A DNA stretch of 31,833 bases from a virus: IMG/VR virus record IMGVR_UViG_3300027763_000020, positions 1 through 31,833 of that record; one strand, written 5' to 3'. The position numbers and the translations under genes are program-made. The stretch's first letter is position 1. Every line of letters begins with the position of its first letter. A model generated the notes under the pieces. That model saw only the letters and a program-made list of their open reading frames with translations. It searched no databases and was not told the DNA's origin. Positions 4,208 to 30,159 of this stretch are shown here, one piece after another.

Positions 4208-4468
4208 TTAGGAAATTTTTAAAGCTTTAAATATGATCGCATGGTGGGCATCGGACATCCCATCCAATTCCAACCCGGCCTTGATGAACATGTGATGTAC
4301 CCGGCGGCGTTGGACAAACGATGCATCGCGTAAATAATGTTTATATTCAAGATTCCAATAAAATGCCACGCCCATGTAATCCGGGGTGCCAATAAAATTG
4401 TAATCGGTGGCAACGATGGCATCAAATGCCGGGTGGGTGTAAATGTTAATTGATATTATTTTTCGCAT
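4208..4468 (-). CDS. Hypothetical protein, 86 aa
   Basis: Not recognised. The sequence mixes a beta-like first half (IISINIYTHPAFDAIVATDY) with a helical, charged second half rich in His and Arg (QRRRVHHMF, DAHHAIIFKALK). Six or so His residues are notable but form no motif I know. It sits in a run of small early genes, ATG at 4468 with leader ATTAATCACC, five bases after the upstream stop. Possibly a small host-takeover protein, but that is guesswork from position. Confidence 0.5.
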   Translation of the reverse strand: MRKIISINIYTHPAFDAIVATDYNFIGTPDYMGVAFYWNLEYKHYLRDASFVQRRRVHHMFIKAGLELDGMSDAHHAIIFKALKIS

Positions 4469-4473
4469 GGTGA

Positions 4474-4806
4474 TTAATTATTTTGGTTAACGACATCCAA
4501 GGCCCGGTCGATTAAAAATGTTTCATCGGCATTTTTTTGATTCCAAATATAGTAAACGCGGTTTTTCCAATCCGTTTTACATTCAACAAAATTCCGTAAC
4601 GCATCAACGCATTCGGCAATCGCACGATCGCGGGCGTTGTCATATTCGGACCATATTTTAGATTCATATAATTCATCCGCTAAATCGCGAATGTTTTTAT
4701 CGGCGGCGGCCATTGCCGTTTCGGATTTGTAAACGCGTTTGTACGCGTCCAAAAACGATTGGGCGGATTTGATTACTTCCGGTTGGGTATGTGATGGTGT
4801 ATGCAT
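4474..4806 (-). CDS. Hypothetical helical protein, 110 aa
   Basis: Not recognised. It is almost wholly alpha-helical and charged (SAQSFLDAYKRVYKSET, then NIRDLADELYESKIWSEYDNARDRAIAEC), ending in VVNQNN. I chose ATG at 4806 rather than ATG at 4836, because a TTGACA-N18-TATGGT promoter lies at 4825-4854 and its start point near 4818 would fall after the upstream ATG. The result is a very short leader of about 12 nt ending AAAAAACC-ATG. It is the first gene of the transcript that runs to the replicase. Confidence 0.55.
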   Translation of the reverse strand: MHTPSHTQPEVIKSAQSFLDAYKRVYKSETAMAAADKNIRDLADELYESKIWSEYDNARDRAIAECVDALRNFVECKTDWKNRVYYIWNQKNADETFLIDRALDVVNQNN

Positions 4807-4824
4807 GGTTTTTTGATTTCCCCA

Positions 4825-4854
4825 ACCATAGGACATGGGTGCCTAATCTGTCAA
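4825..4854 (-). promoter_or_regulatory. Promoter for the replicase-proximal genes
   Basis: On the minus strand, a perfect -35 TTGACA (plus 4849-4854) is followed after 18 bp by TATGGT (plus 4825-4830). Predicted transcription starts about 12 nt before ATG 4806. The inverted repeat at 4854-4868 touches the -35, suggesting regulation. Confidence 0.5.
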
Positions 4855-4868
4855 TCAATATAATTGAT
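4854..4868. promoter_or_regulatory. Operator-like inverted repeat
   Basis: ATCAAT-ATA-ATTGAT is a perfect 6-3-6 palindrome abutting the -35 box of the 4825-4854 promoter. The gene immediately upstream (4895-5158) encodes a small winged-helix-like protein that could bind here. Binding is inferred from position and symmetry only. Confidence 0.4.
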
Positions 4869-4894
4869 AAGCCCCAACCCCTATTAAATGTGGG

Positions 4895-5158
4895 TTACTT
4901 GCCTTTACCAACCGGGCCAAAATGGATCATGGATGTTGGGAACCCATTAACCGGGACGCGATAACGCCGGGTTTCAAATATACCCCCATCAATCATTTTT
5001 TGCAAAACACGCCGGCAATACCGTTCATCATAATTCCATTTTTTTGCCCATAGCTTGGCCGGCATAAAATCCTTGGGTGGTTGTTCCGCCATGTTGTGTA
5101 ACGAAACAATAAATTTCCGTAAATGCGGACATGTAATTTTTTGTTTCCGGTTTCTCAT
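4895..5158 (-). CDS. Small winged-helix-like protein, candidate early regulator
   Basis: The 87-residue protein is basic at its start (MRNRKQKITCPHLRKFI) and contains a pattern AKLWAKKWNYDERYCRRVLQKM, then GIFETRRYRV, that fits a winged helix: a recognition helix followed by a two-strand wing. It is flanked by two operator-like inverted repeats, one at 5182-5205 before it and one at 4854-4868 after it, both overlapping promoter-like elements. I infer a regulator controlling its own transcript and the next one. It could instead be a replication-initiation accessory protein. ATG at 5158 lies about 10 nt from the predicted start of transcription. Confidence 0.5.
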   Translation of the reverse strand: MRNRKQKITCPHLRKFIVSLHNMAEQPPKDFMPAKLWAKKWNYDERYCRRVLQKMIDGGIFETRRYRVPVNGFPTSMIHFGPVGKGK

Positions 5159-5174
5159 TTGTTAATTTTTTGGC

Positions 5175-5205
5175 ATATTAATTTACAAACCAAAAGTTAT
5201 GTAAA
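5175..5205 (-). promoter_or_regulatory. Promoter with overlapping inverted repeat
   Basis: TTTACA and TGTAAA form an inverted repeat with a 12-bp centre (5182-5187 and 5200-5205). The 5200-5205 arm also serves as a -35-like TTTACA for a TAATAT -10 (plus 5175-5180) at a rather long 19-bp spacing. The symmetric site covers the spacer, as in autoregulated phage promoters. Confidence 0.4.
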
Positions 5206-5216
5206 CTAATTTTAAA

Positions 5217-5990
5217 TCATTTAGGATTCCAAACCTTCAATTCCGTTTGCCAAACCCATTTGTTGGATTTGCCCACCTTGTGAATCAACCAACATTTCCA
5301 ATCATCCCCATCCACCCATCCGGCCGCCCATCCCGATCCCCACCGCGATGTGGCCAATCGATGTGATGCATATGACATGGCATCCTTTACACAAAGACAT
5401 CCCGCGGAATACGCGGCACCGCCACCATGTTTTTGTAAATTAACTTGTTCCAACCGGTGAATGTGTCCCATCACAACACCACCACCGTTGGATGCGTAAT
5501 GGCTTCCTTGTTGCATCACCGCGTTTGAACCATGGGCATAACCATGTATGAAGGCCATTGGCCCCAACCGGTACACCCCATGTTCCGCATGGTACGGTAA
5601 AATTGTTTTACAACCGGCCTTCCGGGCAACGCCTATAATTTTTGCCTTAATAGCTTCCGCACCAACGCGGTCCGTTTCCTTGGATGCCATTGAAATTGTA
5701 TTGTCCAAACGGTGTTCATGGTTTCCCCATAACCACACATCGGGTTTATAACGGGTTAAAAATTGGCATCCGGAATCGATATCGGCCTGTAATGATTCCG
5801 CTTGTTCCGATTGTCCGGCCCCCATCCGTAAGCTTCTAAAATCAAAATTATCGCCCAAGCTAATACGCACATGTGGTTTAAAATCCTTAATGTATTCAAA
5901 CAATGCATCCACCGCACCATTGCCATTACCCCAATCGGCAAGATCACCATGCGAATCCCCGGCCGCAATCCATTTAATTGGTTTTCCCAT
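5217..5990 (-). CDS. Calcineurin-like metallophosphoesterase
   Basis: The 257-residue protein carries the ordered metal-binding motifs of the calcineurin-like phosphoesterase superfamily: GDSHGD at 11-16, GDNFD at 46-50, GNHEHR at 89-94, a late His in FIHGYAHG near 149, and GHIHRL at 175-180. Such enzymes hydrolyse phosphomono- or phosphodiesters with two metal ions. Phage members include nucleases, phosphatases and cyclic nucleotide or RNA-end enzymes; the substrate cannot be told from the sequence. It is three bases downstream of the 5993-6310 gene and close to the dNMP kinase, so a nucleotide or nucleic-acid substrate is plausible. The C-terminus is Trp-rich (WKCWLIHKVGKSNKWVWQ). Confidence 0.85.
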   Translation of the reverse strand: MGKPIKWIAAGDSHGDLADWGNGNGAVDALFEYIKDFKPHVRISLGDNFDFRSLRMGAGQSEQAESLQADIDSGCQFLTRYKPDVWLWGNHEHRLDNTISMASKETDRVGAEAIKAKIIGVARKAGCKTILPYHAEHGVYRLGPMAFIHGYAHGSNAVMQQGSHYASNGGGVVMGHIHRLEQVNLQKHGGGAAYSAGCLCVKDAMSYASHRLATSRWGSGWAAGWVDGDDWKCWLIHKVGKSNKWVWQTELKVWNPK

Positions 5991-7386: not shown

Positions 7387-7506
7387 TTATGATTTCAAAT
7401 ATTTCAATGCGGCCAAAACAACAATAACGCGGAATGCTAATTTGAATGTGGCAACAATTAATGCAAAAATGATGGTTGCGGTTTGTTTGATTGTATCGTC
7501 TTCCAT
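7387..7506 (-). CDS. 39-aa membrane peptide
   Basis: The frame begins MEDDTIKQTATIIFALIVATF and continues to AALKYLKS. It has an acidic start, one hydrophobic helix of about 25 residues broken by Lys and Arg, and a basic end, fitting a small inner-membrane protein with the N-terminus outside or an amphipathic helix. Its ATG overlaps the exonuclease stop as TAATG, and its stop is four bases from the SSB-like start, so it is clearly a real gene fitted between its neighbours. Function unknown; small membrane peptides in early blocks often act in host takeover or exclusion. Confidence 0.6.
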   Translation of the reverse strand: MEDDTIKQTATIIFALIVATFKLAFRVIVVLAALKYLKS

Positions 7507-8330
7507 TAAGCAAAATTGATTTGGGTTGATGCGGTGGCCTTCGGGGCAATGTCCAATGTTTTGATTTCCGTACTATATGCCGGCCATTCATTTAACGCGG
7601 TACATGTTTTGAATAATGTAATCGCCGCTTCAAAATCGAATGCGGCCCGCGTTTGCAATTCGGGTCCGATTTCATAACAGGCCCCGGCAAATGGTGATTC
7701 CTTTTCCACCGCGATCAGCCGGAAACCCTTTGGGCGAATGCCGGTGGCCGCTTCAAAAATGGTGCGGTACATGTGTGCCTGTAATGCGTATTTGAATGTA
7801 ATTATGTTACGCAAGAACCCGCCCGGCGATGGGGACGCGTCCTCGCAACTTTTGAGATCGTACAAATACCCATCATCACCAATTGCATCAATGGAACAAC
7901 GCACCGGCACACCGCAATATTCCGCGGTTAACATTAATTCGGTATGCGTAAATTTAACCCCGATGCGTTCAATAATAACATTCATGGCATCGGCCACATT
8001 GATTGCCAATTCACATTCATCATGGTCAATTGCATATTGGCCGGGTTGTAAGCTTCCTTGGAAGGCGGAAAATAATTCTTTTCCCTCTTTGGTCCTTCTA
8101 TCACAAACCGGCGTTTGTTTGTAATTTTGCCATACATCGGGTTGGAGTACCGCCAAATGTGTGTATGTTCCAACGCGTAAGGCCTTGGATTCCGTTTGTG
8201 GTGCATTTAACGCGGCCTTGTAATGGGCCGGTGATCGCAACAATTCCTTGGCCAATGAGTAATTTAAATGTGTATGTTTCAACGCATCATATTGTTCGCG
8301 GGTGGTAATGGTGGTGGTTATTTTTTTCAT
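7506..8330 (-). CDS. PD-(D/E)XK exonuclease (RecE/DUF3799-like)
   Basis: The 274-residue protein matches the phage recombination exonuclease fold: GTYTHLAVL with His59 in the N-terminal helix pattern, Glu131 (HTELMLT), SIDAI with Asp148, DLKS with Asp158 and Lys160 forming the D-x-K catalytic core, and the QxxxY motif LQAHMY (184-188). Such enzymes resect 5' ends of duplex DNA so that an annealing protein can pair the resulting 3' tails; the ERF gene at 10008-10607 is the partner. I chose ATG at 8330, because the longer in-frame extension to 8432 is TTG-started and runs through a non-coding, structured leader. The gene overlaps the next small gene as TAATG. Confidence 0.8.
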   Translation of the reverse strand: MKKITTTITTREQYDALKHTHLNYSLAKELLRSPAHYKAALNAPQTESKALRVGTYTHLAVLQPDVWQNYKQTPVCDRRTKEGKELFSAFQGSLQPGQYAIDHDECELAINVADAMNVIIERIGVKFTHTELMLTAEYCGVPVRCSIDAIGDDGYLYDLKSCEDASPSPGGFLRNIITFKYALQAHMYRTIFEAATGIRPKGFRLIAVEKESPFAGACYEIGPELQTRAAFDFEAAITLFKTCTALNEWPAYSTEIKTLDIAPKATASTQINFA

Positions 8331-8441
8331 AAGGAAATGGATGTTGTCACTTGGAATCAAAAAGGTAAAACCACCAACGACAGCGGGAAACCTTGGCGGC
8401 CTTTCGGTACCGCATCTATCCGTTGACAACAAAATTTATTT
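8331..8441 (-). promoter_or_regulatory. 111-bp structured leader before the exonuclease
   Basis: This gap lacks the codon pattern of its neighbours. In the transcript, CCGCCAA can pair with UUGGUGG (seven pairs, one G-U) around a 15-nt loop. A GAAA tetraloop hairpin CCGAAAGG lies directly before it, and GGUA/UACC can close both, giving a three-way-junction shape. A partial copy of the late intergenic motif (TGACAACATC) lies about 10 nt before the ATG. It may be a regulatory leader. No known riboswitch consensus was recognised. Confidence 0.35.
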
Positions 8442-9800: not shown

Positions 9801-10011
9801 TTTTTGGTAGGGTTGGAATTGGTAACCAATGGGTGATGGTTTTGGGTTTATAATATCCGCTATCCAACACAATGGTGCCAATTTGCCCGCGTTGATATAA
9901 AACAAATATCATTGTGTCGTACGGTGCGGTGTCGATGGATTGCCATTGATATTTTTTCTCTACGGCATCAACGGCCATGTTTGCAATTTCGGCGGGAACC
10001 CAATGTTTCAT
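9784..10011 (-). CDS. DUF551-like small protein
   Basis: The 75-residue protein has the DUF551 pattern: WQSIDTAPYDTMIFVLYQ near the middle and HWLPIPTLP near the end, where the Trp-x-Pro-x-Pro end is the family's hallmark. DUF551 proteins are common in phage early regions, often next to recombination genes, and have no settled function. Here it directly follows the ERF gene, whose stop overlaps this start (ATG 10011, ERF stop 10008). Confidence 0.65.
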   Translation of the reverse strand: MKHWVPAEIANMAVDAVEKKYQWQSIDTAPYDTMIFVLYQRGQIGTIVLDSGYYKPKTITHWLPIPTLPKNETNK

Positions 10012-10607
10012 TGTTTGTGGTTCCGTACCGCGGAAAGGAATGTTTGCGGGTTTTGAACAATGGCATTTACAATGTTGGCCGGCACATGTTCCAACGACTG
10101 ATCGGTGGCCAAATCAATCCATCCTTTAAACGCACAATATGCGATGGCCTTTTTCACATCATCACTTGGAATGATGGTGTACCATGGTTGGGTTTTACCG
10201 GCCGGTGCCGGTTTACTGATTGAATGCCCATCGTCATCCATGTCCACCGAAACGCCCGCCGCGGTGGTTAAAGTAATCCGCCTTAAATAAGTTACGGCCG
10301 CGGCAATATTTTGCGGTGTCATGCCTTCCGCTTTAATCATCAATTTGCCAAAATCAAATGATTGCCCGGATGTATGAACAAACGATGTGGCCACACCAAT
10401 TTTACCATCATCCGCAATTAATATTTGAACCAATGCCAAATTGTTTTTGTGCAATATTGGTTTGATGGAATCCAATAAATTATCCAAGGAAACATATTTG
10501 GCCTTGAAATGACTATTGGTTTTATTGGCGGCAACATTTTGCATTTGGGCCAATGCGTTGATTAAATCAGCTTGTGCCGATTGGGTGGTTGTTTCTTTGG
10601 GTGGCAT
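10008..10607 (-). CDS. ERF-family single-strand annealing protein
   Basis: The 199-residue protein matches the ERF superfamily of phage recombinases: KYVSLDNLLDSIKPILHKNNLAL near the start and the hallmark region NIAAAVTYLRRITLTTAAG followed by DMDDDGH (about 100-128). ERF proteins bind and anneal ssDNA for homologous recombination and genome circularisation. The tail after about 135 has the helix-hairpin patterns (IAYCAFKGWID, VPANIVNAI) seen in ERF C-termini that bind DNA. Its natural partners here are the exonuclease (7506-8330), the SSB-like protein and the RuvC-like resolvase. ATG at 10607, leader A/T-rich without Shine-Dalgarno. Confidence 0.85.
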   Translation of the reverse strand: MPPKETTTQSAQADLINALAQMQNVAANKTNSHFKAKYVSLDNLLDSIKPILHKNNLALVQILIADDGKIGVATSFVHTSGQSFDFGKLMIKAEGMTPQNIAAAVTYLRRITLTTAAGVSVDMDDDGHSISKPAPAGKTQPWYTIIPSDDVKKAIAYCAFKGWIDLATDQSLEHVPANIVNAIVQNPQTFLSAVRNHKQ

Positions 10608-12161: not shown

Positions 12162-13490
12162 TCAAATTTCACCATTAATATGTTTTTGGATTTGTTCACC
12201 AATCCACCGGACAACAGGCACCGCAAATGAATTGCCACATGCTTTGTATCGCGGACCATCCGGGCATTGTTCAGCTGGTTTTCCTTTCCAAGAAATTTGA
12301 GAATAGTTATCGGGAAACCCTTGCAATCTTTCGGTTTCGATTGGTGTTAATCGTCTAACAATTGAATCCATTTTGATAAAATTCGTTTGGTTCATTCCTG
12401 ATGTTGAATTAATTGTTGAAACGGTATTTTCATTACAATAAATTTCATTATTTTGTCTTTGTATAAATGAAAAGGGTTTTTCTTGAATGTACGGAACATT
12501 TCCGCCGCCGGTGCCATATCGCGATGTAACTGTTGGTGCAACATTCAATGGTCCGGTAATTCTTGAATCGCTTGGGTGGTTTTCATACATAACCGCATGC
12601 ACATCGGTTTTGGTTAATGTATACATTGGTGTACCGGGTTGCGATGCACCGGGACCCATCGGACCGGCGTTTTCCGATCTGCCAATTATGGTGCCTTGGA
12701 TTGGAATAACAACCGCATGGGTTTTGCGGGTATCACCCACATCAAAATTATTCAATGTGTTTGAAACATCCGCTGGTACCCATGTTTCATCATCATTTAC
12801 GGATGATGCTCGTTTTGATTTTCTAAATGGGAATTGGCAATTTTGATTAATGCCGTTTCCAACATTGGCGGTAATGGTTTCCCGCGTTTTTTTGATCTGT
12901 GTAGAATACCCCGACAAGCTTTCGGGGATAGATAATATCTTTGCGGAATGTTCCCAATCTGTAAGACATGCAACAACAAAGATTCTTCGGCGGCGTTGTG
13001 GCACTCCAAACCATTGTGAGTTAAGCACCCGATAGGCGATATGATACCCATGTTGTGCCAACCCTTGAAGGAATGTTGCAAAATCAATTCCTTTGGGTTC
13101 CCCGCTGGACAATACACCGGGGACATTTTCCCAAATAATAAATTTGGGTTTAAATTTTTCAGCGATTCCAATAAAGGAATGCATGATTTGTCCGCGGGGA
13201 TCGTTGAGGCCTCCCCTTTTTCCTGCAACGGAAAAGGATTGGCATGGTGTTCCGCCGATAAGAATGTCAACTGAACCGGGTTCGATTGGCCATTCGTTGT
13301 ATTTTGTGATGTTTCCATAATTTGGTGTTGTTGGGTAATGATGTTTCAAAATTGCGGATGTGAATGGGTCAATTTCGGAAAACCCAATTGGTTCCCATCC
13401 TAAATGTTTCCATGCGACCGATGCCGCTTCCATTCCTGAACAAACAGAAAGATATTTTAATGGTGTGGTTGGTTTTATTGTTTTAGGCAT
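12162..13490 (-). CDS. C5 DNA cytosine methyltransferase (Dcm-like)
   Basis: The 442-residue protein methylates cytosine at C5. It has the ordered motifs: I SVCSGMEAAS (15-24, S-adenosylmethionine site), IV GGTPCQSFS with catalytic Cys83, VI ENVPG (121-125), VIII QRRRR (165-169), IX RRLTPIETERLQGFP (379-393) and X ACGNSFAVPVVRWI (417-430). The target-recognition region lies between VIII and IX. Start ATG 13490 is preferred, because the in-frame extension to 13571 overlaps the upstream small gene. Base composition is mosaic: AG pairs on the plus strand are absent in 12541-12780 but frequent in 12901-13020, so the ends look acquired and the middle native. It may protect against host restriction; the target is unknown. 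Confidence 0.9.
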   Translation of the reverse strand: MPKTIKPTTPLKYLSVCSGMEAASVAWKHLGWEPIGFSEIDPFTSAILKHHYPTTPNYGNITKYNEWPIEPGSVDILIGGTPCQSFSVAGKRGGLNDPRGQIMHSFIGIAEKFKPKFIIWENVPGVLSSGEPKGIDFATFLQGLAQHGYHIAYRVLNSQWFGVPQRRRRIFVVACLTDWEHSAKILSIPESLSGYSTQIKKTRETITANVGNGINQNCQFPFRKSKRASSVNDDETWVPADVSNTLNNFDVGDTRKTHAVVIPIQGTIIGRSENAGPMGPGASQPGTPMYTLTKTDVHAVMYENHPSDSRITGPLNVAPTVTSRYGTGGGNVPYIQEKPFSFIQRQNNEIYCNENTVSTINSTSGMNQTNFIKMDSIVRRLTPIETERLQGFPDNYSQISWKGKPAEQCPDGPRYKACGNSFAVPVVRWIGEQIQKHINGEI

Positions 13491-13503
13491 ATAATGTTTA
13501 TGT

Positions 13504-13707
13504 TTAATTGAATAATACTTTGTTAGCAAATGTAACAAATTTTGCCATTTCCGGGCCATAAGAAATTCCATAATCGGATCCCGCTTGTTTTAATGCGGAT
13601 GTGGGTTCACAACCACCATCCATATACAACAACGCATCGTTGATGGCATTTTGGTACATATTTAATTCTTCTTTGGTTATATTAATTGGTGATTTGGTTT
13701 TTTTCAT
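13504..13707 (-). CDS. Hypothetical protein, 67 aa
   Basis: Not recognised. A helical protein with a basic start (MKKTKSPINITKEELNMYQN) and one Gly/Cys turn (YMDGGCEPTSALKQAG). SALKQAGSDYGISYG may be half an HTH, but it is weak. It lies between the 66-aa first gene of the early transcript and the methyltransferase, 13 bp before the latter. Confidence 0.5.
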   Translation of the reverse strand: MKKTKSPINITKEELNMYQNAINDALLYMDGGCEPTSALKQAGSDYGISYGPEMAKFVTFANKVLFN

Positions 13708-25585: not shown

Positions 25586-26503
25586 TTAGGATGTGAATGC
25601 AATGCGTTGTAACGCATCGGGATTACCAACGGAATGTCCGGTGATCCATGTTGCCGAAATGTTAGTACGGCCGCGGGTCCAATCATACCATTGACGCATT
25701 TGGAAAGCAAATTTGCTATCGGGGTCCTCAACGGTTAAAGCTTCACCACCACCGGTGGTTGGTGCAACCGGGGTACGCGTTACAATAACTACGCCTTGGC
25801 CCGATGTTGCAATGCCTTGTAATTTTTCGGTGTATGCATCACCCGATGTTGGGAAACCGTTGTATTCGTAAATGTCAATGCCATGTAAACGGCCAACTTT
25901 ACCATCGCGGATAACTGATGTATCGCCGATAGAAAGATATTGAGCAACGGACGCATCTTGAAGTAATTGGCCAAATGCATCGGGCGAAAGTAACGCGGCA
26001 CGACCATCGAAAGGAAGATTTGCCTTGGTTAAGCTTGTCGCAACATTTGCAACGGCAACACGATTGAATGATGCCTTGGCACCGGAATAAGCGGCGGTTG
26101 CATAATTTGCGGTGGTTACACCGGCAAGCACATCATCGTAAATGGATTTAACAACGGCATTTGAAACCGGTGCAATGAAAACGCGGCGTAACATTTCAAC
26201 GGAAATGGTGGCGGCTTCTAAATCGGTAAATGATTTCATTACATAACGGTGATCCGCGAGGGTTACCGCAACGGTGTTTGAAACGGCATCCTCGGCAACG
26301 AAACCGTTGGCGGGGTCAAATGTGGACGCGGTGGATTTACCGGCAAAACGCGTATTAACGGTTTGGCCTTTTTCAGCTACATAAGCGGAAAAATCCGTTA
26401 CGGCGAACGACTTAATGGGCGATAAAACCGGTACAAGAGTACGGAGGGTTTCGGCCGCAACGAATTGGGGTGCCAATCCGGGATTGATGATATTTTGTGA
26501 CAT
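25586..26503 (-). CDS. Major capsid protein, HK97 fold
   Basis: The 305-residue protein has the feature order of HK97-fold capsids: short N-arm, an E-loop-like segment (YVAEKGQTVNTRFAGKS), a P-domain with ADHRYVMKSFTDLEAATISVE, a long spine helix (MLRRVFIAPVSNAVVKSIYDD), and A-domain GRAALLSPDAFGQLL. It follows the scaffold-like gene, is followed by the strongest terminator, and no other gene near is large enough. The start is ATG 26503, leader ACATAAC-ATG. The genome-wide lack of CT is somewhat relaxed here (AAGCTT, CTT codons), as in highly expressed genes. I see no covalent cross-link residue pattern to prove HK97-type chain-mail. Confidence 0.85.
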   Translation of the reverse strand: MSQNIINPGLAPQFVAAETLRTLVPVLSPIKSFAVTDFSAYVAEKGQTVNTRFAGKSTASTFDPANGFVAEDAVSNTVAVTLADHRYVMKSFTDLEAATISVEMLRRVFIAPVSNAVVKSIYDDVLAGVTTANYATAAYSGAKASFNRVAVANVATSLTKANLPFDGRAALLSPDAFGQLLQDASVAQYLSIGDTSVIRDGKVGRLHGIDIYEYNGFPTSGDAYTEKLQGIATSGQGVVIVTRTPVAPTTGGGEALTVEDPDSKFAFQMRQWYDWTRGRTNISATWITGHSVGNPDALQRIAFTS

Positions 26504-26537: not shown

Positions 26538-26981
26538 TTATTTGATTCCTAAATGTGCCATGATCGCGGTGCGATTTGCATTATAGAAAGACAATTTTTT
26601 AACCGCATCCTTTTCGGAAATGTATGTTTCCCAAATTTCCGCATTGGATTTTGGTGCGGCGGTTTCGCCGGCCGGGCTGATTTCAACCGCCGGTACACCA
26701 ACCGATGCGGCGATGGCGGCGGATTTTTTGCCAACCGATTCAATTTGTTTAACGGCCGATTCCTTTAACTTTTCGGATTCGTTAAGCTTGGCGGTCAATT
26801 CCTCAATTTGTTTGGACATTGCATCCGCTTTGGCCGCTTCAATTTCAAGCGATGAAATTTTGTTGGTTAATTCGGCATTGATTGAAACAACCGATGCATG
26901 TTCCGCGGCCAATTTTTCCGCTTCCGCGGATTTACCGGTGAATGCGGCTTTCAATGCATTTAAGCTTTGTTCCAATGTCAT
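26538..26981 (-). CDS. Scaffold-like coiled-coil protein
   Basis: ATG at 26981 gives 147 residues, starting MTLEQSLNALKAAFTGKSAEAEK; the TTG 21 bases upstream lies in the conserved motif. The central part is a long coiled coil (NAELTNKISSLEIEAAKADAM, then KQIEELTAKLNESEKLKE) and the C-terminus has an Ala/Pro linker and a compact helix (NAEIWETYISEKDAVKKL). Position, between protease and capsid, and coiled-coil nature fit a scaffold or capsid assembly protein. If so, the protease has no need to supply the scaffold in its own C-terminus, as lambda does with Nu3. Confidence 0.6.
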   Translation of the reverse strand: MTLEQSLNALKAAFTGKSAEAEKLAAEHASVVSINAELTNKISSLEIEAAKADAMSKQIEELTAKLNESEKLKESAVKQIESVGKKSAAIAASVGVPAVEISPAGETAAPKSNAEIWETYISEKDAVKKLSFYNANRTAIMAHLGIK

Positions 26982-27004: not shown

Positions 27005-28591
27005 TTAACTATGTTTTTTGATGTCACCAAGTACGGCCTTTTCATCCGTTTCAATTGGTTTCTTTCCGGTGTCCGCTTCCGCGGTGGCATCAGCTTTGGA
27101 TTCATAACCATCACATTCCGGGTCCTCCGGGTCATAATCGGGGTTTTCGGGATCACATTTATCACCATTTAATGAATCGGGGTGATAACATTTATATCCG
27201 GCATCCGCGTAAACTTTGGAACATGTTTCGTCTTTTTCCAATATGTGTTTTACCGATGCACCGGCATCCGCTTCCATTTTCTTTACGGTATCCAATTTGT
27301 ATTTTGCGGTGTCCTCTAAATCATCCTTTTTCATGTGTACCATTTTGTAAGGAATGGAATTATCGTTTAAATATTTTTCGGTTTCACCGCGTTTGGATTC
27401 ATGGCGGGATGTAACAATGTAAACATGTTTACCGGCATCGCCCATGCGTTTTAAATGTTTTGAAACATTTTCATTTAATGAATCATCATCATTTTTAATG
27501 GTGCCATCAAAATTGGAAACCACCAATTCGGTTTTTGCATCCACATCATTTTCCCCAACCGCTTCCTCTAACTTGGGTTCAACATGGCGATCGGCGGGTT
27601 GGGCCGGGAAACCATCGGTTGTAAGATTAACACCCAATAATGCCTTTTCCGATGCGGACATTTTTTTGGTCATGTATTTGGATTTGGAATCATCATTTTC
27701 CGTTTCACCAATTTCGGATTCCTCTTTTTCGGATTCCTCATTTTCTTCCGCCGCTTCCATTTGTTGGTGTACGGCCGGGGCAATGGTTTCCATTAATTCA
27801 TCAAACCCATTAATTAATCCGGTTACCAAACCAGCTTCCGCACCGCGTTTACCGGAAAAGCATTGGCCTTCCATGGATGCATCATCCACAAATTCGCGGA
27901 CCGATTTAACGGCGGTTTTAAAATCACCCCAAATATCCATTACTTCATCAAATAACATTTTTCTTTGGCCTTCATCCAACGCGGTACCCGGCACACCGGC
28001 CGCCTTAAATTTACCGGCCTTGATAACATCAACTTTAATGCCTTCATTCGCGTACAATCCGGACAAATCATCATATGCTATATATACCCCTATTGAACCC
28101 ACCGTTGCCGATCCTGTGGCAAAAAATTCGGTTGCCTGTGATCCAATCCAATACGCGGCCGAACAAGCTTCATTACTTGTAAATGAAATTGTTTTTTTGG
28201 AACAATTTTTAACGCGGTTTGCCAATTCGGGAACACCAACGGAAACACCGCCCGGTGAATCAATATCAAAAATAATGCATTTAATATTTTCATCGCGTTC
28301 CGCATCCTCTAACATTTCTTCAACATCATCAATGTCGCAACAACCACACATTTTTTCATAATCACTCAAATTGCGACCAATGACCCCTTTAATTGGGATG
28401 ATGGCAAATGGCGGAAATTTTTGGATGGTTTCGGGTTGACCAAACATTGCGGCCAATATTTCGGACATGTCCGACATTTTTGCACCCATTGGGATTTCAA
28501 CATTGGCAACGCGGTTTAAATATTCCGCGGCCTGTGCCGGTTGAATTAAAATTGGGCGGTTGGCCTTGAAATCTTTTGTTAAATTACGCAT
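27005..28591 (-). CDS. S49 prohead protease fused to a HAD-like pseudophosphatase domain
   Basis: The 528-residue protein has an SppA/lambda C-type S49 protease in residues 60-270: FDIDSPGGVSVG (108-119) forming the oxyanion part, the nucleophile Ser144 in EACSAAYWIGSQA, the Lys of GKFKAAG (194 or 196) and a final EAGLVTGL. It likely matures the capsid. An acidic linker (280-303, mostly Glu) follows. Residues about 353-475 resemble the phosphatase domain of polynucleotide kinase/HAD proteins: motif I SNFDGT (359-364) where Asn360 stands in place of the nucleophile Asp, motif II YIVTSR (391-396), a lysine region YKMVHMKKDD and a motif IV EKDET (452-456). The tail has DPEDP-type repeats. The fusion is unusual; the Asn suggests no phosphatase activity. 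Confidence 0.85.
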   Translation of the reverse strand: MRNLTKDFKANRPILIQPAQAAEYLNRVANVEIPMGAKMSDMSEILAAMFGQPETIQKFPPFAIIPIKGVIGRNLSDYEKMCGCCDIDDVEEMLEDAERDENIKCIIFDIDSPGGVSVGVPELANRVKNCSKKTISFTSNEACSAAYWIGSQATEFFATGSATVGSIGVYIAYDDLSGLYANEGIKVDVIKAGKFKAAGVPGTALDEGQRKMLFDEVMDIWGDFKTAVKSVREFVDDASMEGQCFSGKRGAEAGLVTGLINGFDELMETIAPAVHQQMEAAEENEESEKEESEIGETENDDSKSKYMTKKMSASEKALLGVNLTTDGFPAQPADRHVEPKLEEAVGENDVDAKTELVVSNFDGTIKNDDDSLNENVSKHLKRMGDAGKHVYIVTSRHESKRGETEKYLNDNSIPYKMVHMKKDDLEDTAKYKLDTVKKMEADAGASVKHILEKDETCSKVYADAGYKCYHPDSLNGDKCDPENPDYDPEDPECDGYESKADATAEADTGKKPIETDEKAVLGDIKKHS

Positions 28592-28614: not shown

Positions 28615-30159
28615 TTAAAGGGGTTCATTACCGTCATTTAATGGAACATCGGCATCGGAAACCGGGGTATCATCATCCGGTGTTCCAACAATTTCACCGG
28701 TTGGTGTATTGGTTGGTTTATACATGGTCCAAAACGGAATGTTTTGTTCCGCGGCCATATCCATTTGATGGCGGATATCGGCGGCCCGGCGGGCGTTGTG
28801 ATCGCGGGCATCGTTTCCGTTTTCGGAATGATATTCGCTGAAAGATTTAAGGCCTAATTCAATAGCTTTAAATGTGGCCGCTTCCTCTTTACCGGCATCC
28901 ACCGTAACGCGTTTTGGTGTAACCCATGTTACCCGCGTCCAATTGTCATTGGGTGGCAAATCACCGTTGGCAACGGCCTGTGCAATTATGTAACCCCATG
29001 TGGGTTGTAATAATCTATTTTTTAGAATTTCCTGCCGATTTGCGAACATTCTACCAGCTTTGGCCACAACCAATCGCATTGCGGCACCGGCTTTATTTGG
29101 TTCAACAACAAATTCATATGGCAATGTTCCAAGGCATGAATCGCGGTTTAAATATTCCAACGCGGCCACCGTATTTGGTCCGGGGCGGGTTGATTCAACC
29201 ATTTTTAAATCCTCGCCGGGTGCCAAGGCCAATGTTTTACCACCAACAAATGTTCCAACTTGTTCGGGATTATCGTAAACTTGATTTGGGTAATCTTGTG
29301 GTCGCATTCCGAAAGCTTCAAAATCGGATTGTGAACCATCAAATTGAGGGTTTTCGCGGGTGATAGTACGCACAATGTCGGCCTGTACTTTCAATGCCTG
29401 TTTTTCCAAGCTGATCACCTCTAACGCATCAATACAATTCAAAATCGAATGTTGCAAAGGGGAATAGGCCCTTGCACCGGAAACTTGTTCCGGGTGGTAA
29501 ATATGCAACATGGATGCGGCCGGTACCATGCGGGTGGTTCCATCGGACCGAATTACATTATACCCAATTACCGCACCAAATTTATCAAAACAAACGCCGT
29601 CAAATAAACCGGTGCCATCCTGCACAACATCAACCGATGCACCAACGCGGTGCGATTCAATAACTTGCAACAATGCGGATTTATCTTTTCCAAATGTTTT
29701 TAAAACAAATATTTCACCATCGCGATCAATTAATTTTGATGCCATGAATTGCACTTCCCAAAAATTATACCGGCCGGTTATTTCACATGGTTTACTTGCC
29801 CAATCATTAAAATATTTTTCGGCCGCAATATCCCATGCCGCGTTGCCGGATGCCGCTTGTGGTTTGATTCCCGATCCAACGCTATACAAAGCCATGTCCG
29901 ATATGATTTGGCGGATAAGGCCCGCGTTGACATACAACCAACGCATTTTACGCGTAAGCTCTTGACGGTCAAAACCGGTCATGGTCCGCTTAAAATCGGC
30001 GGGCCAAGGGGTTTGAATCCAACTTCTCTTGTTGGAATATTTGGCCCCTTCAAATTGTGAGAAGATACCCGAACCACCACCGGCAAATGATTTTGCCTTC
30101 AAATCGGATTTACCGGATTTGGATTTTAAATTTGGTTTTGATGGTTTTTTTGGGGCCAT
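28615..30159 (-). CDS. Portal protein (lambda gpB-type)
   Basis: The 514-residue protein matches the lambda-type portal family in length and layout: a basic N-terminus (MAPKKPSKPNLKSKS), WPADFKRTMTGFDRQELTRKMRWL near 55-78, then YNFWEVQFMASKLIDRDGEIFV near 130-150, ISLEKQALKVQADIVRT near 245-265 and a C-terminal tail. The dodecameric portal sits at one capsid vertex, passes DNA and binds terminase. It lies six bases downstream of the gpW-like gene and is followed by the protease after a short gap, the usual lambdoid order. The C-terminal 40 residues are acidic and Pro-rich. Confidence 0.85.
   Translation of the reverse strand: MAPKKPSKPNLKSKSGKSDLKAKSFAGGGSGIFSQFEGAKYSNKRSWIQTPWPADFKRTMTGFDRQELTRKMRWLYVNAGLIRQIISDMALYSVGSGIKPQAASGNAAWDIAAEKYFNDWASKPCEITGRYNFWEVQFMASKLIDRDGEIFVLKTFGKDKSALLQVIESHRVGASVDVVQDGTGLFDGVCFDKFGAVIGYNVIRSDGTTRMVPAASMLHIYHPEQVSGARAYSPLQHSILNCIDALEVISLEKQALKVQADIVRTITRENPQFDGSQSDFEAFGMRPQDYPNQVYDNPEQVGTFVGGKTLALAPGEDLKMVESTRPGPNTVAALEYLNRDSCLGTLPYEFVVEPNKAGAAMRLVVAKAGRMFANRQEILKNRLLQPTWGYIIAQAVANGDLPPNDNWTRVTWVTPKRVTVDAGKEEAATFKAIELGLKSFSEYHSENGNDARDHNARRAADIRHQMDMAAEQNIPFWTMYKPTNTPTGEIVGTPDDDTPVSDADVPLNDGNEPL

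Follow-up and report, generated by a model that had tools for sequence, protein, structure and literature searches.

The window, by which we mean the whole 31,833-nucleotide stretch of viral DNA analyzed here, carries a head gene region in which an S49 head maturation protease is fused to a HAD-like domain. The features of this region, with L-numbers denoting related contigs and (-) the strand, are listed below.

28615-30159 (-): portal protein (Phage_portal_2, 6.5e-39)
27005-28591 (-): S49 head maturation protease-HAD fusion, 528 aa, with the same architecture in L001 and L017
27752-28591 (-): S49 protease domain, residues 1-280 (Pfam, PHROGs and alignment)
27545-27751 (-): acidic linker, residues 281-349 (net charge -12 over residues 281-350, and alignment)
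27167-27544 (-): HAD domain (C0, PNKP/LNS2-like), residues 350-475 (PHROGs, fold and Foldseek)
27512-27514 (-): Asn360 at the HAD nucleophile position (AAT; GAT in L001 and L017)
27410-27412 (-): Thr394 of HAD motif II (TSR), conserved (T/S in 65/65)
27296-27298 (-): Lys432 of HAD motif III, conserved (Lys in 65/65)
27233-27235 (-): Lys453 of HAD motif IV, Asn in 64/65 aligned HADs (alignment and codons)
27008-27166 (-): acidic C-terminal tail with a DPENPDYDPEDP segment and the conserved end motif IETDEK (alignment and charge)
26538-26981 (-): coiled-coil scaffold, homologous to the C-terminal part of HAD-scaffold fusions
25586-26503 (-): major head protein (phrog_283, 1.4e-28)

The reading frame of the 528-residue protein is open and intact. 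Its first 280 residues form a head maturation protease of the Peptidase_S49 family (Pfam 7.7e-20; phrog_53 4.1e-50) encoded, as expected for this family, between the portal and major capsid protein genes. The alignment shows Ser144 (28160-28162) and Lys196 (28004-28006) to be invariant among relatives, and by analogy with the S49/SppA peptidases these two residues are taken to be the catalytic pair. A host-cell origin of the fusion is ruled out, as the window is a virus record. The acidic segment DPxDPDYDPxxDP lies 3' of the HAD domain in the window and in L017, but precedes it in L018 and L019.

As in lambda gpC/Nu3, the S49 protease lies between the portal and major capsid proteins with the scaffold encoded just after it. 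The original prediction of a separate coiled-coil scaffold was correct: in contrast to lambda C/Nu3, the window scaffold is not nested in-frame but is its own ORF, in another frame and after the protease stop, and its likely start is ATG 26981 (MTLEQSL..., homologous to L017, L018 and L002) rather than TTG 27002. A -1 frameshift joining protease and scaffold at AAAAAAC near the protease end was considered and rejected, since a TAG at 27011-27009 closes the scaffold frame ahead of its start codon. The window protease also differs from lambda gpC in that its tail is acidic and carries the HAD domain. The suggestion that this domain sits at the position of the lambdoid scaffold is upheld in part: in most sister proteases this region is simply an acidic tail, and the HAD is an insert in that tail.

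Residues 350-475 match phage polynucleotide kinase (PNK) phosphatases (phrog_415 1.9e-11; phrog_505 7e-8) and fall below the Pfam gathering cut-offs for HAD families, with 17.6-21.0 bits against HAD_PNKP (gathering 27.6), for which the true PNKP of L278 scores 159. The homologous HAD of L100 lies above gathering for both Hydrolase_6 (34.8 vs 27) and Acid_phosphat_B (32.4 vs 27). Because the window matches were below cut-off, the fold was checked by structure prediction. An AlphaFold2 model built from an alignment of 13 relatives (pLDDT 92.2, pTM 0.85) has the alternating strands and helices of a HAD alpha/beta core, and its best Foldseek match in the PDB is the T4 Pnkp 3'-phosphatase (5uj0, E 1.2e-6), followed by Pnkp1, Nir2/LNS2, MDP-1 and lipin. 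The fusion and the placement of its HAD part at 27167-27544, both proposed from the nucleotide sequence, are thus confirmed by Pfam and PHROGs domains and by the predicted fold. Capless HADs tend toward macromolecular substrates. In the HAD tree, the HADs of head proteins do not group with PNKP but form one clade split from it (support 100/100), and every head HAD tested has a negative net charge (-3 to -18).

Motif I of the window HAD reads SNFDGT, while L001 and L017 have DFDGT, so the predicted replacement of the nucleophile Asp by Asn holds at the codon level. The nucleophile is Asp in 64 of 65 unique aligned HADs, the window being the sole exception. The second Asp of motif I is kept in 63 of the 65; L006 and L034 retain the first Asp and have Met for the second. 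A second departure in the window, absent from the original prediction, lies in motif IV, where Glu452 is followed by Lys453 (E-K) and relatives have [DE]-N. All of the catalytic residues are present in 62 of the 65 unique HADs aligned, with departures only in the window, L006 and L034; DIDGT is also present in the S78-borne HADs that we inspected. Because of this conservation, the family is predicted to be a phosphatase, and the window copy a degenerate representative of it. As motif IV in the form [DE]N is unusual, activity of the relatives is only predicted. The window copy itself should be unable to form a phospho-aspartate or transfer a phosphoryl group, since its nucleophile for the phosphoryl-enzyme is lost to Asn360 and a residue of motif IV to Lys453. 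The original reading of the domain as binding rather than catalytic may therefore suit the window copy but not the family, whose job it would be misleading to deduce from the window's Asn.

The original prediction, made without searching, knew of no such fusion. A search of viral contigs shows that it is not unique to this phage: the S49-HAD architecture occurs in about 20, and 12 distinct HADs of this type, including the window's, were placed in the tree. The closest relatives of the window protein are those of L001 and L017 (76-78% over the matched part). In annotated phage genomes, S49 matches were present but none covered 80% of the query, and the HAD matches were PNKs of actinophages. In a tree of 119 S49 domains, the proteases with a HAD fall into five groups interspersed among sisters that carry no more than the acidic tail, and 57 of the 119 proteases lack a HAD. 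The acidic tail of these HAD-less sisters is about 164 residues long with a net charge of about -38, and the end motif [VIL]xTD is found in the 52 HAD-less tails examined. About 10 of the 52 carry another accessory, a CPxCGxPH zinc-knuckle-like element (tails of this type: L053, L055-L058, L062, L063, L065-L067 and L077). Since so many sister proteases lack it, this accessory of the acidic protease tail is dispensable in general. The tail-A HADs of protease tails form one clade (100/99, HAD tree), so that one ancient gain followed by many losses and transfer between lineages are both possible.

The protease tail of L100 carries a different HAD, and L103 and L104 have none. Over the 5.4 kb upstream, L100 and L103 share about 95% of their DNA sequence, and downstream 93-94%; between these flanks, 347 bp of HAD in L100 stand in place of 86 bp of the tail in L103, a clean cassette swap. 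The L100 HAD is nested among scaffold-borne HADs (93/83, HAD tree), which makes transfer from a scaffold gene into the protease tail the most likely origin of this module.

HAD-only queries returned about 133 distinct viral contigs, a hand count of contigs and not of loci. Four of these encode true PNKs (L278, L298-L300) and four are ended by the contig edge (L020, L273, L291, L292); in all the rest, the HAD is on or beside a head-maturation protein, in one of three settings: the S49 tail, the N-terminus of a coiled-coil scaffold, and the N-terminus of, or the gene next to, an S78 protease. The L100-type HAD query alone gave 80 contigs which, with the exception of L100, show portal, S49 protease, HAD plus scaffold, and major capsid protein within contig reach. 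Among the scaffold-type contigs, the upstream part is missing from L156, the HAD and scaffold of L142 lie in two adjacent ORFs, and several terminate inside the HAD-scaffold fusion. The same gene order (portal, S49, HAD/scaffold, major capsid protein) is found in L039, a prophage in an Opitutae MAG, whose HAD-scaffold protein is modeled as a HAD (residues 1-112) joined by a disordered linker to a helix of 93 residues. The scaffold part of these fusions begins at an invariant Met (MT[IL]EEQL), the start used by free scaffolds; it is in-frame at residue 141 of L039 (ORF 4451-5305) and at the same site in A6 members. Long and short products might both be made from such genes. It should be noted that a clear Shine-Dalgarno sequence is absent even at the HAD gene starts, which makes a Shine-Dalgarno test of the internal Met uninformative.

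The third setting emerged with wider HAD profiles, which place the HAD N-terminal to an S78 prohead protease or in the gene right after it. The S78 parts of the fusions match Pfam S78 at about 1e-46 to 1e-41, and the HAD is above gathering in L281 and L285. In L271, L273, L279, L280 and L282, a small protein consists of an N-terminal CxGxAVV...GCH segment followed by the HAD, and its gene lies directly downstream of the S78 protease gene wherever the contig shows it. A phrog_2859-like domain of unassigned function is found N-terminal to some HAD-scaffold proteins and also inside S78 prohead proteases (L117, L118, L127, L148, L283, L287-L289 and MG835450.1); the last of these (L197) is Pontimonas phage phiPsal1, whose S78 prohead protease holds this domain. 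In structure searches of BFVD, the best matches independently include 'prohead protease' and XkdF entries from uncultured phages. Such BFVD/UniProt entries named 'prohead protease' from uncultured Caudovirales phages (A0A6J5R419, A0A6J5NAI8, A0A6J5MQJ8, A0A6J5S5M9 and A0A6J7WPK9) have a domain matching both head HAD models and, judged from the IMG/VR S78 relatives, may be S78-HAD rather than S49-HAD proteins. Proteins of this kind are thus already deposited under automatic names. The association of HADs with head proteins is undescribed in the open-access literature that we searched.

The ratio omega for the window HAD is 0.21 against L017 and 0.31 against L001, compared with 0.17 for the L001-L017 pair and 0.11-0.14 for the window S49 domain. 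Three-way amino-acid distances to L001 and L017, calculated by hand, give a window branch of ~0.21 in the HAD vs ~0.08 in the S49 domain, and 26% of HAD residues differ between the window and L001. These omega values, together with the longer HAD branch, indicate that the window HAD is still under purifying selection, although this appears somewhat relaxed.

We propose that small capless HAD phosphatases of the C0 type form a lineage tied to phage head maturation, in which flexible acidic segments would tether the HAD to an S49 protease tail, a scaffold N-terminus or an S78 protease N-terminus. Because it is tethered to proteins that work inside the prohead, the HAD would be co-assembled into the prohead via its partner, similarly to engineered cargo on the P22 scaffold N-terminus; from the fusion partners, we infer a location in the prohead interior. 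Cargo fused to the N-terminus of the P22 scaffold enters the procapsid (PMC9962691). Like the HAD-scaffold fusions, these constructs have a foreign domain at the scaffold N-terminus (PMC9962691), but they are engineered, whereas the HAD fusions are natural and occur on proteases too. Head proteases and scaffolds come together within the prohead; in lambda, B, the C protease and the Nu3 scaffold form the initiator complex (PMC3224144). Inside the prohead, the HAD may act on a phosphorylated substrate, which could be a protein of the head or scaffold or else a small molecule, and it might be freed by maturation cleavage. The window copy would carry out no phosphoryl transfer; purifying selection, somewhat relaxed, may retain it for a binding or structural role. 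Taken as a whole, this account of a prohead-tethered phosphatase lineage, with a window copy that lost catalysis and was kept, has in our estimation an even chance of being right. The many HAD-less sister proteases and the unusual motif IV of the relatives count against it. We hold more tentatively, at somewhat short of even, that one HAD clade has repeatedly been attached to whichever protein enters the prohead, as an accessory assembly phosphatase or as genome-delivered cargo, and that the window copy is a pseudophosphatase.

The HAD might instead be a structural spacer, filling space as a folded unit in the protease tail or scaffold or mediating interactions there, with catalysis irrelevant. 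In keeping with this, the window copy (Asn and Lys) and those of L006 and L034 (Met for the second Asp) have lost catalytic residues yet retain the domain, the fusion partners differ in orientation, and the acidic tail alone suffices in sister phages. We nevertheless consider such a role unlikely, as the near-invariance of both motif I Asp residues and the presence of motifs II and III in all 65 of these diverged HADs are hard to explain without catalysis. It is likewise improbable that the window HAD is a vestige in decay whose task ended with the catalytic mutations; an omega of 0.21-0.31, an open frame and a fold predicted with high confidence speak against decay, despite the two altered catalytic positions, a window branch that is longer in the HAD than in the S49 domain, and the frequent gain and loss of HADs in the clade.

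The original prediction also envisaged binding of nucleic-acid ends, and a PNKP-like 3'-phosphatase could act on such ends during packaging or after ejection. The T4 Pnkp phosphatase is indeed the closest solved fold and phage polynucleotide kinases (HAD_PNKP, phrog_415/505) are the closest named families, sharing the C0 HAD fold and, in the relatives of the window, the DxDGT, Thr and Lys residues. The head HADs differ in being fused to head proteins without a kinase partner and in a motif IV of [DE]N rather than DD, and the window copy is without the nucleophile. No kinase or RNA ligase was recognized among the scanned subset of window ORFs. As the domain is acidic in all members tested and its clade stands apart from the PNKP phosphatases, end binding is disfavored and the enzymatic version of this role is decidedly doubtful. 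That Asn and Lys arose from faulty sequencing or assembly of what is really an active phosphatase is very improbable indeed, since two independent sites are involved and the 26% residue difference to L001 indicates that these are not isolated changes; it is nonetheless true that both codons are one base from those of the relatives, and a degenerate motif search found no further VVSNFDGT-type (Asn) motif in viral contigs.

We favor a prohead-tethered phosphatase lineage. The occurrence of one enzyme clade on three unrelated head-morphogenesis proteins, together with a natural swap, points to a phosphatase function in assembly or as cargo. As far as our knowledge and the searched literature go, a phosphatase role in capsid assembly or as virion cargo is undescribed, and our data suggest an unrecognized role of this kind in phage heads, lost by the window copy. 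Paired phages with and without the module, the intact L017 and L039, and the natural catalytic losses (window, L006 and L034) provide a test system. Elsewhere in the window lie genes for a C5 cytosine methyltransferase (12162-13571), an ERF annealing protein (10008-10607) and a DUF3799/exonuclease VIII-like protein (7506-8432), and the phage has a further phosphatase-like gene, for a metallophosphoesterase (phrog_221, 5217-5990).
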